From positions 496,001 through 560,000 of the forward strand of contig NZ_CP036282.1 of NCBI RefSeq assembly GCF_006974105.1: 64,000 bases of DNA, written 5' to 3'. Under the pieces are notes generated by a model. The model was not told where the DNA came from. It did no database searches and worked only from the letters and a program-made list of their open reading frames with translations. Shown here piece after piece: positions 30,969-53,531 of this stretch. The DNA is from Rhodoferax aquaticus (GTDB lineage Bacteria; Pseudomonadota; Gammaproteobacteria; Burkholderiales; Burkholderiaceae_C). The translations under genes and the position numbers were made by a program. The stretch's first letter is position 1. The number at the start of each line of letters is the position of its first letter.

Positions 30969-31014
30969 CAGTCTCTAGAGTCAGCGGGGTTTGGTCATGG
31001 TGAAGTGTTTCACC
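30969..31014 (-). promoter_or_regulatory. Late promoter element, site 1 (leftward lysis-packaging operon)
   Basis: The palindrome at 30999-31014 (GGTGAAACACTTCACC on the minus strand) is followed on that strand by ATGACCAAAC and, 22 nt on, by AGAGACTG (30976-30969). This is the same arrangement as sites 2-4. It stands 44 bases before the holin-like GTG. Unlike sites 2-4, the first gene has a normal Shine-Dalgarno sequence. Confidence 0.72.
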
Positions 31015-31077
31015 GTGAGAGTGTTTTTGTCGGGTGATTCAATGCGCGCAATGAATTACTCAACTGAGGAATACCCC

Positions 31078-38966: not shown

Positions 38967-39018
38967 ATCGAAATTCTCCCTGATCAATCGAGCAGCGCGG
39001 GCTGCCATTGATTTTTAA

Positions 39019-39045
39019 CCCTCGGCCTCGGCCGGGGGCTTTTTT
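39019..39045 (+). terminator. Rho-independent terminator inside the early region
   Basis: CCCTCGGC, loop CTCG, GCCGGGGG (one T-G pair) then CTTTTTT. It separates the transposition genes from gemA and mor, so the latter need read-through, antitermination or a promoter of their own. Confidence 0.85.
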
Positions 39046-39086
39046 CAAACCTCTATTGATGGGGGCTTGAAAAAGGAATGAAACCC

Positions 39087-39686
39087 ATGAACATGACGAA
39101 AGACCCTCGCCGTAAGTCGGAGCTGGCCCTGATCCACATGGCGCGGTCTCACTTCTCTATGACACGTGACGACTATGTGTATGTACTGCGCGAGCTGACT
39201 GGCAAGGAAAGCTCGGCAGACCTGAATGCGGTTGAGCGTGAGCGTGTGATTAAGCACTTCAAAGCCAAGGGCTTCCAGGTAAAACCCACCGGCAAAGCTA
39301 AGCAGACTCGCACGCTGGCACAAGACGCTCAGAGCAGAAAAGTGCGGGCGATCTGGTTGATGCTGCATGTGCTGGGCCAGGTGCGCGATCCGAGCGAGGT
39401 GGCATTGGCTGCATACACCAAGCGTATGGCAAAGGTGGATGCGCTGCAGTGGGCAAACCACTTTGCAGTGATTGAGGGCCTTAAGGGCTGGGCCATGCGC
39501 CATCTGCCGGACTATGTGAAGCCTCGTATTCAGGCAATGGACTTGAATGCACTTACAGCGGGCCAGCGTGAGGATGTGCTGAACATGGTTAACAGCCTGC
39601 GGCGTGCCCAGGCCGAGGGCCACACGGCACTATTTGACTATTACTGGCCGATGTTCCAGTTTCTACAGGAATGTGAGCAAGCATGA
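39087..39686 (+). CDS. GemA-like regulatory protein (Mu gp16, DUF1018)
   Basis: 199 residues from the ATG at 39087, which has AAGGA 9 bases upstream; the ATG at 39078 touches that site and is less likely. The N-terminal block RRKSELALIHMARSHFSMTRDDY (long motif, key residues LIHMAR and DDY) and the end YYWPMFQFLQECEQA are family patterns. In Mu, GemA modulates host gene expression and DNA topology and is made with Mor. Confidence 0.85.
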   Translation: MNMTKDPRRKSELALIHMARSHFSMTRDDYVYVLRELTGKESSADLNAVERERVIKHFKAKGFQVKPTGKAKQTRTLAQDAQSRKVRAIWLMLHVLGQVRDPSEVALAAYTKRMAKVDALQWANHFAVIEGLKGWAMRHLPDYVKPRIQAMDLNALTAGQREDVLNMVNSLRRAQAEGHTALFDYYWPMFQFLQECEQA

Positions 39687-40174
39687 GCCGCACCGCCCCT
39701 GTGCTGACCATCAAGCGTGAGGCTCTGCCCGAGAGCCTGCGCGAGCTGGTGCGTGTGATTGGTGAGGCTGACACCCTGCGCCTGATCGGCATGCATGGGG
39801 GCGCACGGGTCACAGTGCCCAAGACACCCAAGGCAGAGCACCCGCTGCGCATGGCGCTCAGCGAAGAGGCCTTTGCCCTCTTAGTGCAGGAATACGGTGG
39901 CGAGGCTTTTGACTTGCCCAAGGGCGACTCATACCTGCGTGAACTGCGCCACGACCAGGTGCGCCAATGCAGGGAGCAAGGCCTAACAGTAGATGAGACA
40001 GCAGAGGCTACCGGCTATAGCCGCCGCCATGTGCTCAACATCTTGAGCGGCCATGGCGACAGTACCGATCACTTCACTATGGACCTCTTTGCAGAAGAGG
40101 CTCCGTCCCTCCGCAGCACACCTGGCGCTGCAAATGACCCATTTGGTCTAGGCGGCAGCACGTTGCTGCGATAA
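39683..40174 (+). CDS. mor: Mor-family middle/late transcription activator
   Basis: 163 residues, ATGA overlap with gemA. An N-terminal dimerisation part (LPESLRELVRVIGEADTLRL) is followed by the helix-turn-helix QGLTVDETAEATGYSRRHVL, the Mor/C arrangement. No second Mor/C gene was found, so this protein may serve both Mor and C roles. It is the best candidate to bind the four GGTGAA-N4-TTCACC promoters. Confidence 0.88.
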   Translation: MSRTAPVLTIKREALPESLRELVRVIGEADTLRLIGMHGGARVTVPKTPKAEHPLRMALSEEAFALLVQEYGGEAFDLPKGDSYLRELRHDQVRQCREQGLTVDETAEATGYSRRHVLNILSGHGDSTDHFTMDLFAEEAPSLRSTPGAANDPFGLGGSTLLR

Positions 40175-40179
40175 TTTCA

Positions 40180-40374
40180 CCGCTGCGCATAAAAAGCGCA
40201 GTGGGGTTTGACGGCCTCTCAGAGACGCGGCGCGAGCCGCCAACCGCAGTGTTTGCGGCTCCTTCATCCAGCTCCAGTTTTGGCGGCTCGGATGGGAGGA
40301 GTGCGAACTCCTGCCGGTACGCCCCCGCGTCTCCCGGTCCGTCAACCCGTTCGAGCCGCCGCCATATCGGCGGT
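40180..40374 (+). ncRNA. Candidate structured RNA after mor
   Basis: A 195-nt GC-rich stretch with nested helices, described as RNA on the + strand. P0: 40180-40188/40196-40204. P1: 40208-40214/40339-40345 (7 bp, plus 3 more beyond a bulge). P2: 40222-40230/40325-40333 (9 bp). P3: 40233-40243/40280-40290 (11 bp, perfect) holding hairpin 40244-40248/40254-40258. P4: 40297-40302/40307-40312 closed by a GCGA tetraloop. P5: 40356-40361/40368-40373. The ORFs across it are Arg/Pro/Ala-rich and look non-coding. No known RNA family recognised. P0 may double as a weak terminator of mor. Confidence 0.72.
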
Positions 40375-40402
40375 CAGGCGCTTTATTCAAATGGGAGTTA
40401 AT

Positions 40403-40717
40403 GTGAGCCTGCCTGACCATCTGTCTGGGCCGACCAAGGTGTCGGCCATCTATATCAACCAAAATCAACAACACCCCGCGTTTGATGTGGTGGACGCCGT
40501 TGATGCTTTAAGCGACCAGCTGGGTGCGTTCCGTGCAGTGGCGCAACTTGCCGATAGTGATCGCAATGGCGGTGAAGGTCTGCCACAATTACAGCGTGGC
40601 GACTTGGCCAAGTTGATCATGGTGCTTAACTCAGACTTAGAAGCGCATGTGAACAAAGTCAGGGGTGCTGCATTGAACATGGCTTCAGGTGCTGCCCAAC
40701 AGGCAAACCCTGTTTAA
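40403..40717 (+). CDS. Small phage protein after the structured RNA
   Basis: 104 residues from the GTG at 40403 with GGGAG 5 bases upstream; the ATG at 40391 is the alternative, and the longer frame back to 40208 crosses the structured RNA and is rejected. Sequence begins VSLPDHLSGPTKVSAIYINQ; two helices follow (FDVVDAVDALSDQLGAFRAV, LVMVLN-type). Function unknown. Confidence 0.6.
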   Translation: MSLPDHLSGPTKVSAIYINQNQQHPAFDVVDAVDALSDQLGAFRAVAQLADSDRNGGEGLPQLQRGDLAKLIMVLNSDLEAHVNKVRGAALNMASGAAQQANPV

Positions 40718-40744
40718 AAACGGCACAAACCCGTTTAAAACCGC

Positions 40745-40802
40745 TTGCAGCGTCTAGCCCGGTACATCGGGAGCCTGCAACGCTTCAAAGCCCGCCACGG
40801 GC
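40745..40802 (+). terminator. Tandem hairpins before late promoter site 2
   Basis: TTGCAG ... CCCG-GTACAT-CGGG ... CTGCAA (40745-40780), then GCCCG-CCA-CGGGC (40790-40802) followed by CTCATTT. The pair probably ends transcription from mor and the small gene. T runs are weak, so efficiency is uncertain. Confidence 0.5.
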
Positions 40803-40833
40803 CTCATTTGCAAAACCACTTCTTACTCTATTT

Positions 40834-40879
40834 GGTGAAGCGTTTCACCATGACGTAATTGACCCTGCTCGGCACAGTG
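40834..40879 (+). promoter_or_regulatory. Late promoter element, site 2 (head operon)
   Basis: The palindrome GGTGAAGCGTTTCACC (40834-40849) is followed by ATGACG and, 22 nt on, GCACAGTG (40872-40879). The protease ATG is at 40886, 36 nt after the palindrome, with no Shine-Dalgarno sequence. Same layout as sites 1, 3 and 4. Confidence 0.78.
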
Positions 40880-40885
40880 CAGGGC

Positions 40886-42061
40886 ATGACACAAGCACTC
40901 CAACCTTCTCACGAATTCAAAGGCCTGTCCGACTGGATTGAGGTGTTCCGCGCTGGAGCACATACCGACAGCAAAGGCCGCAGCTGCACCTTCACTGAAG
41001 CTGACCTGGATCAGATGGTCAGCAACCTGGCGCTTGGCGCCGCGCCTGCTGTGCTGGGGCACCCCAAGCACAACGACCCGGCCTTTGCCTGGGTGAAGCC
41101 CGATGGTGCCAAGCGCGAGGGCAATTCCCTGTTTGTGAAGTTTGAAGACATCAACCCGGCCTTTGAAGCTGGTGTGAACAGCGGTGCTTACCGCAATCGC
41201 TCGGTGTCGGTGTTCCAGGACAAGGATGCTGGCTGGCGGATGCGTCATGTGGGCTGGCTGGGTGCTGCTGCCCCGGCCATTGATGGCTTGACCCCGCTGG
41301 ACTACAGCGCTGAGGTGGATGCCTATGAGTTTGATGCAGAGGACTGGGACATCGGCTACGCCCTGGGCGACACGGCGGAGCTGCTGCGCGGCCTGCGTGA
41401 GCAGCTCATTGCGGACAAGGGCATTGATGCTGCGGATGCGGCCTTGCCCAACTGGCGCATCCAGTCTGTAGCGGATGCCGCAGAGCGTGTGAAGGCGGCG
41501 GCTCGCGCTGAAGTGGCACCAAGCACAGCAGGTTCTTTTTCTCAAACCAACACACCAGGAGGTGCTATGTCGATTTCCCAAGAGCAGCTAGATGCTGCTG
41601 TTGCCAAGGCCCGCAAAGAAGCGGAAGAAGCCGCTGCTGCAACCTTTGCAGCCAGCCAGGCAGAACTGGTACGTCTGCAGGGAGAACGCCAAGCCGAGCG
41701 CATTGGTGTGCAGATCAATGACTGGACTGCAAAGGGTCTGGTCACACCTGCCGAGGTGCATGGTCTGGCTGAATTCATGACTTCCCTGGAGTCGGCCGAT
41801 GGTGAATTCAGCTTCAGTGCTGCAGACAGCAAGGAAGTAAAAAAGACGGCTGCTCAGTTCTTCGCGGATTTCATGGCAGCGCGCAAGGCTGTGGTCAAGC
41901 TGGGCAACCAATCTGATCTTGGCGGCGATCAAAACGCCATTGACCGCACTGATGCGAACCAGATTGCCGACCGTGCTCGCGAGTACATGAAAGAACAGGA
42001 AGGCAAGGGCTTGTCGGTGTCCTTGCCGGAAGCGGTGGCCTATGTGTCCCGCGCCGTCTGA
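40886..42061 (+). CDS. Phage prohead protease with C-terminal scaffold (Mu I/gp32-like)
   Basis: 391 residues from the ATG at 40886; a TTG at 40859 is in frame but lies in the promoter. Residues 1-170 are the Mu-type protease (IEVFRAGAHTDSKGR, LGHPKHNDPAFAWV, VSVFQDKDAGW). From about residue 228 the protein is an Ala/Glu-rich helical scaffold, also made separately from 41567. It processes and shapes the prohead. First gene of the rightward late arm. Confidence 0.9.
   Translation: MTQALQPSHEFKGLSDWIEVFRAGAHTDSKGRSCTFTEADLDQMVSNLALGAAPAVLGHPKHNDPAFAWVKPDGAKREGNSLFVKFEDINPAFEAGVNSGAYRNRSVSVFQDKDAGWRMRHVGWLGAAAPAIDGLTPLDYSAEVDAYEFDAEDWDIGYALGDTAELLRGLREQLIADKGIDAADAALPNWRIQSVADAAERVKAAARAEVAPSTAGSFSQTNTPGGAMSISQEQLDAAVAKARKEAEEAAAATFAASQAELVRLQGERQAERIGVQINDWTAKGLVTPAEVHGLAEFMTSLESADGEFSFSAADSKEVKKTAAQFFADFMAARKAVVKLGNQSDLGGDQNAIDRTDANQIADRAREYMKEQEGKGLSVSLPEAVAYVSRAV
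41567..42061 (+). CDS. Nested scaffold protein from an internal start (Mu Z-like)
   Basis: A very strong AGGAGGT site stands 3 bases before an in-frame ATG (MSISQEQLDAAVAKARKEAE), exactly at the protease-scaffold border. It yields a 164-residue free scaffold sharing the protease C-terminus, as Mu protein Z does with I. Highly charged and helical, as scaffolds are. Confidence 0.85.
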   Translation: MSISQEQLDAAVAKARKEAEEAAAATFAASQAELVRLQGERQAERIGVQINDWTAKGLVTPAEVHGLAEFMTSLESADGEFSFSAADSKEVKKTAAQFFADFMAARKAVVKLGNQSDLGGDQNAIDRTDANQIADRAREYMKEQEGKGLSVSLPEAVAYVSRAV

Positions 42062-42094
42062 CTCCAACCCACCCATTAACTCTCGGAGAAATAC

Positions 42095-42478
42095 ATGGCT
42101 AATCCTTTACTGGCAGTGAACTATGTTGCTGACGCTGCCATTCCTAACAACCGCCTAGTAAGGCCCGGCACCGGCGACCGCAATGTGGCGTTAGCTACCG
42201 CAGCCACAGATTCCATCATCGGTGTGGTGAACGAAATGCCTCCAGGCATCGCCACTGGCGAGCGTGTTGACGTGGTTCGTGTCGGCATTGCTTGGGTCGA
42301 AGCTGGTGCGGCTATTACTCGCGGCGCCCTGATCACCTCGGACGGCGTAGGCCGTGCTGTGACTGCAGCGCCTGGTGTTGGCGTGAACAACCGAATCATC
42401 GGCGTCGCAGATGAGTCTGCCAGTGCTGCTGGTGACGTGATTCGCTTCACCATCGAACCGGGCTCTGTGCAGGGCTAA
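42095..42478 (+). CDS. Capsid decoration-type protein (DUF2190-like)
   Basis: 127 residues with a GGAG site. It is rich in Ala, Val and Gly with a beta-barrel pattern (DSIIGVVNEMPPGIATGERV, RGALITSDGVGRAVTA). Placed between scaffold and major capsid genes, the usual position for head decoration proteins, including those of the DUF2190 family. Family assignment is moderate. Confidence 0.7.
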   Translation: MANPLLAVNYVADAAIPNNRLVRPGTGDRNVALATAATDSIIGVVNEMPPGIATGERVDVVRVGIAWVEAGAAITRGALITSDGVGRAVTAAPGVGVNNRIIGVADESASAAGDVIRFTIEPGSVQG

Positions 42479-42538
42479 AAGTCGGCGCCAGTCCTTTGGG
42501 ATCGGCTTGAGTTCACCTTTCAATTTTCAGGAGAAAAC

Positions 42539-43495
42539 ATGGCTACAACTGCCTTTCCTATCAACCCGACGTTGACCGCCATTGCGATGGTGTATTCAAA
42601 CCCGGCCACTGCACTCATCGCTGATGAAGTGATGCCGCGCATCGGAACCGCAAAGAAGTTCGCCTGGTCAAACTATGACGTGGCGCAGGGCTTCACTGTG
42701 CCGCAGACGCTGGTGGGCCGCAAGAGTGTGCCAACTGAAGTGGACTTCACCGGAAGCCTGGTCAACGACGAAGTGTTGGATTACGGCTTGGACGACATTG
42801 TTCCGAATGATGAAGTGGAAGCCTTCAACAGCATGGTGAAACCAGCGCGCGGTGGCCCGCCGAACCCCTTGGATGTGAGCACGATGCTGACTACCAAGCT
42901 GATTCAGCTGGACCGTGAGGTGCGTGTGGCGGGCCGAGTGTTCAACACCGCCAACTTCGCGGCCGGTAACCAAGCAACGCTGTCCGGCACCAGCCAGTGG
43001 TCTGACTTTGCCAACAGCAACCCACTGGACGCCATCTTGGCTGCCTTGGACGTACCGGTATACCGCCCCAACGTCGCGGTGTTTGGTCAGGCCACGTTTA
43101 CCAAACTGCGTCAGCACCCGCGCATTGTGCAAGCTGTATTCGGCACTGCGCAAACCGGTGGCGTAGTAACCCGCGACCAGCTCGCCCAAGTGCTGGAAAT
43201 CCAGAGGGTAGTTGTTGGCGCTGGTTTTGTGAACACCGCTCGCAAGGGTCAGGCAGTGAATAACCAGCGCGTCTGGGGCAAGCATGCCGCGTTCCTCTAC
43301 GTGGACAAGGAAGCCGCTATGGCGCAGCAGCCTTGCTGGGGCTTCACTGCCCAGTGGGGTGACAAGGTGGCCGGAGAGAGGCCCGAACCCAATATGGGTA
43401 TCCGTGGCTCCCAGCGCGTGCGTGTGGCGGAGTCTGTGAAAGAAGTAGTGAGTGCTACAGCGCTGGGCTACTACTTCCAGAACGCGGTGGCCTAA
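42539..43495 (+). CDS. Major capsid protein
   Basis: 318 residues with AGGAG before the ATG. Start NPTLTAIAMVYSNPATALIA and blocks VPTEVDFTGSLVNDEVLDYG and NNQRVWGKHAAFLYVDKEAA are typical of HK97-fold capsids of Mu-like phages. It follows scaffold and decoration genes in assembly order. Full length. Confidence 0.9.
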   Translation: MATTAFPINPTLTAIAMVYSNPATALIADEVMPRIGTAKKFAWSNYDVAQGFTVPQTLVGRKSVPTEVDFTGSLVNDEVLDYGLDDIVPNDEVEAFNSMVKPARGGPPNPLDVSTMLTTKLIQLDREVRVAGRVFNTANFAAGNQATLSGTSQWSDFANSNPLDAILAALDVPVYRPNVAVFGQATFTKLRQHPRIVQAVFGTAQTGGVVTRDQLAQVLEIQRVVVGAGFVNTARKGQAVNNQRVWGKHAAFLYVDKEAAMAQQPCWGFTAQWGDKVAGERPEPNMGIRGSQRVRVAESVKEVVSATALGYYFQNAVA

Positions 43496-43569
43496 GGTCC
43501 AACTGGATGGCATGAGGCGAGGTATGTACCGCCTTCTTTTAAATTCAAAAACCCTCTCTGGAGAGACTT

Positions 43570-47823: not shown

Positions 47824-47828
47824 GGTGC

Positions 47829-47874
47829 GGTGAAGTGTTTCACCATGACCAAACTGGCGTGCAGTCAGACACTG
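47829..47874 (+). promoter_or_regulatory. Late promoter element, site 3 (tail operon)
   Basis: Palindrome GGTGAAGTGTTTCACC (47829-47844), then ATGACCAAAC and AGACACTG (47867-47874). The chaperone ATG is at 47881, 36 nt after the palindrome and 6 nt after the box, with no ribosome site. Confidence 0.8.
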
Positions 47875-53479: not shown

Positions 53480-53485
53480 TGCTTT

Positions 53486-53531
53486 GGTGAAGTGTTTCAC
53501 CATGACCGATTGACGCCGGTTTAAGACACTG
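53486..53531 (+). promoter_or_regulatory. Late promoter element, site 4 (baseplate-fibre operon)
   Basis: Palindrome GGTGAAGTGTTTCACC (53486-53501), then ATGACCGAT and AGACACTG (53524-53531). The gp46 ATG is at 53537, 35 nt after the palindrome, without a ribosome site. No terminator is seen before it, so it adds to read-through from site 3. Confidence 0.78.

Follow-up and report, generated by a model that had tools for sequence, protein, structure and literature searches.

The window analysed here is a stretch of 64,000 nucleotides from Rhodoferax aquaticus (contig NZ_CP036282.1, positions 496,001 to 560,000), and all positions below are counted from its first letter. Between the gene for a mor-like late transcriptional activator and the head genes of a Mu-like prophage lie a 195-nt stretch (40180-40374) with strong folding potential and an ORF of 104 amino acids. 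The original prediction placed a structured RNA behind an activator gene, and the upstream gene does belong to PHROG 836. The features of the locus, all on the plus strand, are as follows.

39683..40174 (+), mor-like late transcriptional activator gene, 163 aa; PHROG 836, E 2.1e-26, and Pfam Mor, E 5.5e-4, below the cut-off of that family
40170..40175 (+), GATAAT, proposed as -10 box for the transcript of the C4 leader, assigned by eye and weak
40180..40204 (+), P0, the 5' leader hairpin, corresponding to that of the a1/b1 leader in P1, from the fold and a sub-threshold RF03163 alignment
40208..40214 (+), target a1, TTGACGG, perfect complement of a' by exact-complementarity search
40222..40230 (+), target b1, GAGACGCGG, perfect complement of b' by the same search
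40234..40269 (+), terminator-like hairpin between b1 and C4, GAGCCGC...GCGGCTC, with the tail CTTCATCC, a weak T-tract
40276..40366 (+), C4 antisense RNA (RF01695); mature RNA predicted at about 40282-40363 by alignment with P1
40297..40312 (+), C4 helix P2 with a GCGA loop; all 6 pairs changed on both sides among relatives, the last resting on 4 rows
40325..40333 (+), antisense segment b', located in the loop of C4 helix P3, from the alignment and its complementarity to b1
40339..40345 (+), antisense segment a', CCGTCAA, in a single-stranded linker of C4, from its complementarity to a1
40367..40373 (+), degenerate a2 remnant TCGGCGG at the usual place of the downstream target, departing from a perfect complement of a' by one wobble and one mismatch
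40393..40397 (+), GGGAG, Shine-Dalgarno-like and belonging to the 104-aa ORF; a b2 would be expected to overlap here, and none was found
40403..40717 (+), 104-aa leader-type ORF with a GTG start, at the place of P1 icd and Gifsy-1 orf45

The stop codon of the mor-like gene overlaps the proposed -10 box, whose letters are identical in the two nearest relatives of the module, L035 from a viral contig and L231 from a Rhodoferax MAG. A consensus promoter scan returned nothing at this box, and a terminator scan returned nothing at the spacer hairpin. At the place of P0, L035 and L231 have, by eye, a hairpin of other sequence.

A cmscan search of the whole window at gathering thresholds gave a single Rfam match, RF01695 (C4 antisense RNA), at 40276-40366 (+), with 49.0 bits against a threshold of 45 and an E value of 2.2e-6. 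The alignment marked no broken or non-standard pair. A match above the gathering threshold places the feature in a known RNA family, so the description of the RNA as undescribed in the original prediction was wrong; its target arrangement is even annotated in phage P1. The helices P1, P2, and P3 are all present with covariation among relatives, the pairs of P3 never varying and hence being uninformative. The segments a' and b' are complementary to the upstream a1 and b1, exactly over 7 and 9 nt, and the 5' end expected for RNase P processing to about 77 nt carries GG. The score of the window is low for the family: among 82 other matches in genomes from the family of the host, 10 score lower. 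In sequence terms, the stretch amounts to a C4 antisense RNA preceded by a target of its own, in a Mu-like prophage where the downstream targets and an adjoining antirepressor gene are missing.

The record of phage P1 annotates immI as a1, b1, C4, a2, b2, icd, and ant, and calls a1 and b1 there "putative" target sites. Both the C4 model and the c4-a1b1 leader model (RF03163) of Rfam match P1 immI. The window resembles C4 of P1 and P7 in the P1/P2/P3 fold, the a' linker, the b' segment in the P3 loop, the upstream a1 and b1, the spacer hairpin, and the small ORF beside C4. It differs in having neither a2/b2 nor an antirepressor gene behind the small ORF, and in its setting, a Mu-like prophage in which it lies behind mor and ahead of the head genes. 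The longest exact runs at the places of a2 and of b2, which in the complete arrangement covers the ribosome-binding site, are 3 nt each, and the gene after the 104-aa ORF is a head maturation protease (PHROG 976). The order of hairpin, a1, b1, and hairpin is that of the c4-a1b1 leader and of IsrK from Gifsy-1 (RF01394), but the window scores 14.7 bits for RF03163 against a gathering threshold of 46.7, and RF01394 gave no match at E <= 1 for 39900-40900. The P1 leader (L051, 48217-48311) scores 51.0 bits with RF03163 and 35.1 bits with RF01394, below the gathering threshold of 50, and the latter match covers the same leader. Possibly, IsrK and the C4 leader are the same element, named twice.

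The 195-nt stretch folds at -109 kcal/mol, compared with a shuffle mean of -79.2 (sd 4.75; z -6.27), and none of 200 dinucleotide shuffles was as low. The claim that its helices exceed chance expectation therefore holds, and the opposite strand folds as well (z -4.79). The helices named in the original prediction are present in the sequence: 7 bp of TTGACGG with CCGTCAA, 9 bp of GAGACGCGG with CCGCGTCTC, 11 bp of CGAGCCGCCAA with TTGGCGGCTCG, P0 from CCGCTGCGC and GCGCAGTGG, and the GCGA-capped 6-bp hairpin, which is C4 helix P2. These had been nested into one multibranch junction. The helices are real, and the single static fold is largely the complementarity of an antisense RNA to its target: the 7-bp helix joins the linker a' to a1, the 9-bp helix joins the P3 loop b' to b1, and the 11-bp helix, which connects the spacer hairpin with the 5' strand of P1, is not conserved at full length. 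Leader and C4 folded together reach -109 kcal/mol and folded apart -95.5.

A search of 399 genomes from the family of the host found C4 in 48 of them, with 83 matches listed including that of the window. One genome of 2.7 Mb (G038) had 10 C4 matches on 10 contigs. To these 83 were added the viral-contig relatives L035, L036, and L037 and phage P1, giving 87 modules. L036, whose C4 and flanks are identical to those of L035, and the misparsed L200 were dropped, leaving 85. An a1 of 7 nt or more was found in 80 of the 85 own pairs and in 7.3% of 7140 cross-locus pairings. For b1, 73 of the 85 own pairs reached at least 6 nt (cross-locus, 11.7%). The downstream sites gave similar values: 77 own pairs reached at least 7 nt for a2 and 69 at least 6 nt for b2, each against 6.5% of the same 7140 pairings. 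All four target sites were present at these lengths in 59 of the 85 modules. A spacer hairpin of 6 or more pairs between b1 and C4, with at least 4 T in the next 8 bases, was found in 53 of 84 modules, compared with 3-8 of 84 in ten base-shuffled spacer sets; the hairpin of the window, with 3 T in its tail, fails both this rule and that of the terminator tool.

Covariation was counted in 15 hand-picked modules, most with long P3 loops. The count covers the C4 helices and a1:a', with b1:b' outside it, as its loops align with many gaps. In the C4 helices and a1:a', 98.8% of 424 cells are paired, and 55 cells carry changes on both sides compared with a shuffled mean of 15.7 (0 of 500 shuffles as high); slid out of register, only 32-49% of the cells pair. 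One of the five measures does not exceed the shuffles, namely further pair types (22 versus 23.9; 470 of 500 as high). For a1:a' alone, 95.2% of the cells are paired, with 26 double-change cells against 7.0 in shuffles, and two of the five measures do not beat the shuffles: 26 of 500 shuffles equalled or exceeded the number of pairs with double changes, and 318 the number of pair types. The original prediction had named compensatory changes among homologues as its check, and the C4 helices and a1:a' pass it. Comparison of homologues supports the C4 helices, a1:a', and b1:b' as paired elements.

The 11-bp helix was rejected as a conserved element. In the 15 aligned modules, 67.1% of its cells pair against a shuffled mean of 67.5%; the inner pairs hardly vary and are uninformative, and the outer pairs fail in most rows. 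The 11-nt run of the window is the only one of 9 nt or more among 84 modules. Shorter complementarity of 6 nt or more between the same two places occurs in 39 of 84 modules, slightly above the 26.7% of cross-locus pairs.

The original prediction also held the stretch to be non-coding. The frame beginning at 40208 is open into the 104-aa gene (ORF 40208-40717), and two database proteins, P0002 and P0004, have a called N-terminal extension through C4 with amino acids close to those of the window. By itself this extension could suggest coding. A coding reading is unlikely because the a' linker is 7 nt in the window and 8 nt in L035, a one-base difference, and because the changes follow the RNA pairing. 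The stretch is probably non-coding.

The 104-aa ORF itself matched no family at E <= 1 in Pfam, NCBIfam, or PHROGs; its relative in L035 had one NCBIfam match below the cut-off (E 0.037). The protein has seven database matches including itself, the six relatives being 67-79% identical. The ORF is rare: among 399 genomes from the family, 399 from the order, and 61 from the genus, it was found in 3, 2, and 1, respectively, its own genome included each time, and the profile hits in G176 and G457 that enter these counts are weak. The AlphaFold model (mean pLDDT 62.2) consists of helices only and is too weak for a fold search. In L053 (genome G354), a 94-aa relative stands behind a C4 module (27% in the alignment, hhalign probability 93). 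An antirepressor gene (P22_AR_N, E 5.8e-40) follows, its start overlapping the stop of this ORF. The C4 of L053 is preceded by a DUF3164 gene, a family known from Mu-like phages. In Gifsy-1, translation of the small orf45 is described as coupled to that of the antirepressor in a passage of PMC4825925. Two repeats of GTTTAAAA lie at 40711-40743, at the end of the 104-aa ORF, and the first of them encodes its NPV-stop end; by eye, such repeats are also present in relatives without C4. The number of these 12-mers in the window is not above chance (6 versus 3.48 expected).

The lineage of the window is represented by three distinct DNA sequences (the window, L035 = L036, and L231), two of them 95% alike. 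Like the window, L035 and L231 have degenerate a2/b2, and their a1 is perfect although a' differs (CCGTCAA versus CTCTCACA). An a1 of 7 nt or more together with an a2 of at most 4 and a b2 of at most 5 was found in five of the 85 modules (the window, L035, L179, L193, and L202). The converse, a2 without a1, was found in L220 and L224, the latter having little upstream sequence. L179, L193, and L202 each show one small ORF after C4, with a1 present and a2/b2 absent. The next large ORF in L193 is thymidylate synthase, and for L179 and L202 the neighbouring genes were assessed only by eye; these three are possibly C4 modules left behind outside a working phage.

What usually lies behind C4 was assessed in 80 downstream ORFs, one per module, chosen by a script with a preference for long ORFs that start with ATG and have a ribosome site. 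No ORF came from L192 or L201, L035 was excluded, and for L037 the ORF adjoining C4 was used instead. PHROG 245 (anti-repressor Ant) matches 11 of the 80, among the best 25 of 89 families. The Pfam antirepressor domains Rha, AntA, P22_AR_N, Bro-N, and KilA-N match 5, 4, 3, 3, and 1, respectively, with members possibly shared. Antirepressor-type genes are common behind C4 in other modules. Among the 30 window ORFs scanned, which are part of the prophage ORFs, PHROGs gave no antirepressor family at E <= 0.001. In the simplest history, the antirepressor gene would have been lost from a complete module, and its absence together with the loss of a2/b2 may reflect decay.

Curvibacter phage TJ1 matches the window over 39000-43500 with 71% coverage and 85.9% identity, and has a different gene, for a 101-aa HTH-type protein, between mor and the protease. 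The slot corresponds to the gap 40175-40858 in the window and was compared with L034, L038-L042, and L050. Ten viral contigs carry a related mor. C4 at the gathering threshold is present in L035, L036, and L037, and no C4 reached it in the stretches examined of L034 and L038-L042; the contig of L033 holds another locus (L228) that is identical to the window at 801 of 801 bases. L038 has a 167-aa ORF in the slot. In L040, the only plus-strand ORF of at least 40 aa ahead of the protease overlaps it, and by eye L039, L041, and L042 have no ORF there. L037, whose mor is 71% identical, carries a C4 in the same slot; its a2 is perfect, its b2 imperfect, and an antirepressor gene of the Rha type is present. 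The MAG L231 has an L035-type module after mor. The contents of the slot differ among relatives; therefore, C4 is a variable cargo of the mor-to-protease slot.

A palindrome, TGGTGAAGYGTTTCACCA, was seen at 30998-31015, 40833-40850, 47828-47845, and 53485-53502, each time ahead of a gene block. The blocks are the holin/lysis genes on the minus strand, the head protease, the tape-measure block, and the baseplate block. With up to 3 mismatches, it has 6 matches on both strands compared with 0.03 expected, and by eye it also precedes the protease of relatives. The palindrome is a candidate operator of the mor-like late activator. From the position of the RNA, the original prediction suggested a role in early-late switching, which finds no support: the head operon has its own candidate late operator at 40833-40850, after the 104-aa ORF, and six of the ten viral contigs with a related mor have no C4 at gathering score in the stretches examined. 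The C4 module as a gate from early into late transcription is likewise weakened by this operator.

C4 of P1 and P7 blocks antirepressor synthesis and underlies heteroimmunity, according to passages in PMC12197685, PMC5320573, and PMC8201110. Weinberg et al. 2010 list C4 in Proteobacteria and phages (PMC2864571), and Burkholderiales are named among the predicted carriers in PMC5320573. Among the matches listed in a search of the open literature, no title or abstract opening dealt with C4 in Mu-like phages. The exact pattern TTGACGG-N0-30-GAGACGCG occurs in the host genome only at the leader and, reversed, in C4 itself, and no second target was found. With only a1 and b1 left and the pattern nowhere else in the host genome, the leader of the RNA itself is the only target found. 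We therefore favour self-attenuation with moderate confidence: in a TJ1-like (Mu-like) prophage, a C4 module of the P1 immI type, lying between mor and the head genes, has probably been reduced to a C4 that acts on its own leader. One transcript would start near 40180 from a putative promoter and run through a1, b1, the terminator-like hairpin, C4, and the 104-aa ORF. C4 would be excised by an RNase P-type cut before the GG at about 40282, as in P1; GG stands at the 5' end of the P1 RNA, and PMC5320573 describes the processing site as GGT for P1/P7 and as GGC for two Acinetobacter C4-like RNAs. Through a' and b', the excised C4 would bind the a1 and b1 sites of leaders, whether these are still being transcribed or complete, presumably lowering expression of the module either by termination before C4 or by sequestration inside the long transcript. 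The former would resemble phage P4 with seqA and seqC, where the CI RNA is an antisense RNA released from a transcript and directed at the upstream portion of that transcript; its pairing with upstream seqA results in termination, as PMC4825925 describes. The parallel with P4 lies in the proposed way of working, and termination before C4 is suggested for the window by this analogy. Self-control, and not repression of antirepressor translation, would be what remains of the system. Counted against this explanation are the poor terminator tail, the empty promoter and terminator scans, the low C4 score, the small number of lineage sequences, and the Gifsy-1 leader RNA IsrK, which activates downstream ORFs in trans according to PMC4825925.

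The main competitor is a relic, that is, a former C4-antirepressor immunity module that has lost the antirepressor gene and a2/b2 and now drifts. The degenerate a2/b2 of the window, L035, and L231, the weak terminator tail, and the low C4 score all suit such decay. We consider it unlikely in view of the perfect a1/b1 in the window and a1 in L035 and L231 despite sequence change, the covarying C4 helices, and the 104-aa ORF, which stays open and is well conserved in its six database relatives. Rather improbable is a stand-alone immunity RNA, with which the prophage would act in trans on superinfecting phages bearing matching a/b sites in their leaders or antirepressor mRNAs. The heteroimmunity of P1/P7 (PMC12197685 and PMC5320573, in part) offers a precedent, and L179, L193, and L202 combine C4, a1, and a small ORF without a2/b2; among the 120 viral-contig loci listed by pattern, however, none had a matching a-b target with both matching C4 segments nearby. 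Continued repression of 104-aa ORF translation by C4 is very improbable. In its favour, six of the seven positions of the a2 remnant can pair, one of them as a wobble, and GGGAG is complementary to CTCCC of C4; against it, the longest exact run is 3 nt at both places and CTCCC lies partly inside P3.

The self-attenuation reading builds on what the sequence comparison establishes, namely the C4 identity, the covarying complementarity, the loss of a2/b2, and the absence of an adjoining antirepressor gene. A further step is speculative and doubtful: after losing the antirepressor and downstream targets, C4 might have become a purely self-targeting circuit in a transposable phage, kept by selection and controlling its own small protein at the early/late border.

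By this finding, a TJ1-like transposable phage carries a C4 immunity RNA, and it does so behind mor, in a slot that holds other genes or none in relatives. The comparison also supplies examples from nature of modules that have kept the a1/b1 arm upstream of C4 but lack the a2/b2 arm downstream of it. Across the 85 modules, the upstream pair is as regular as the downstream pair, which makes the function of a1 and b1 directly testable.
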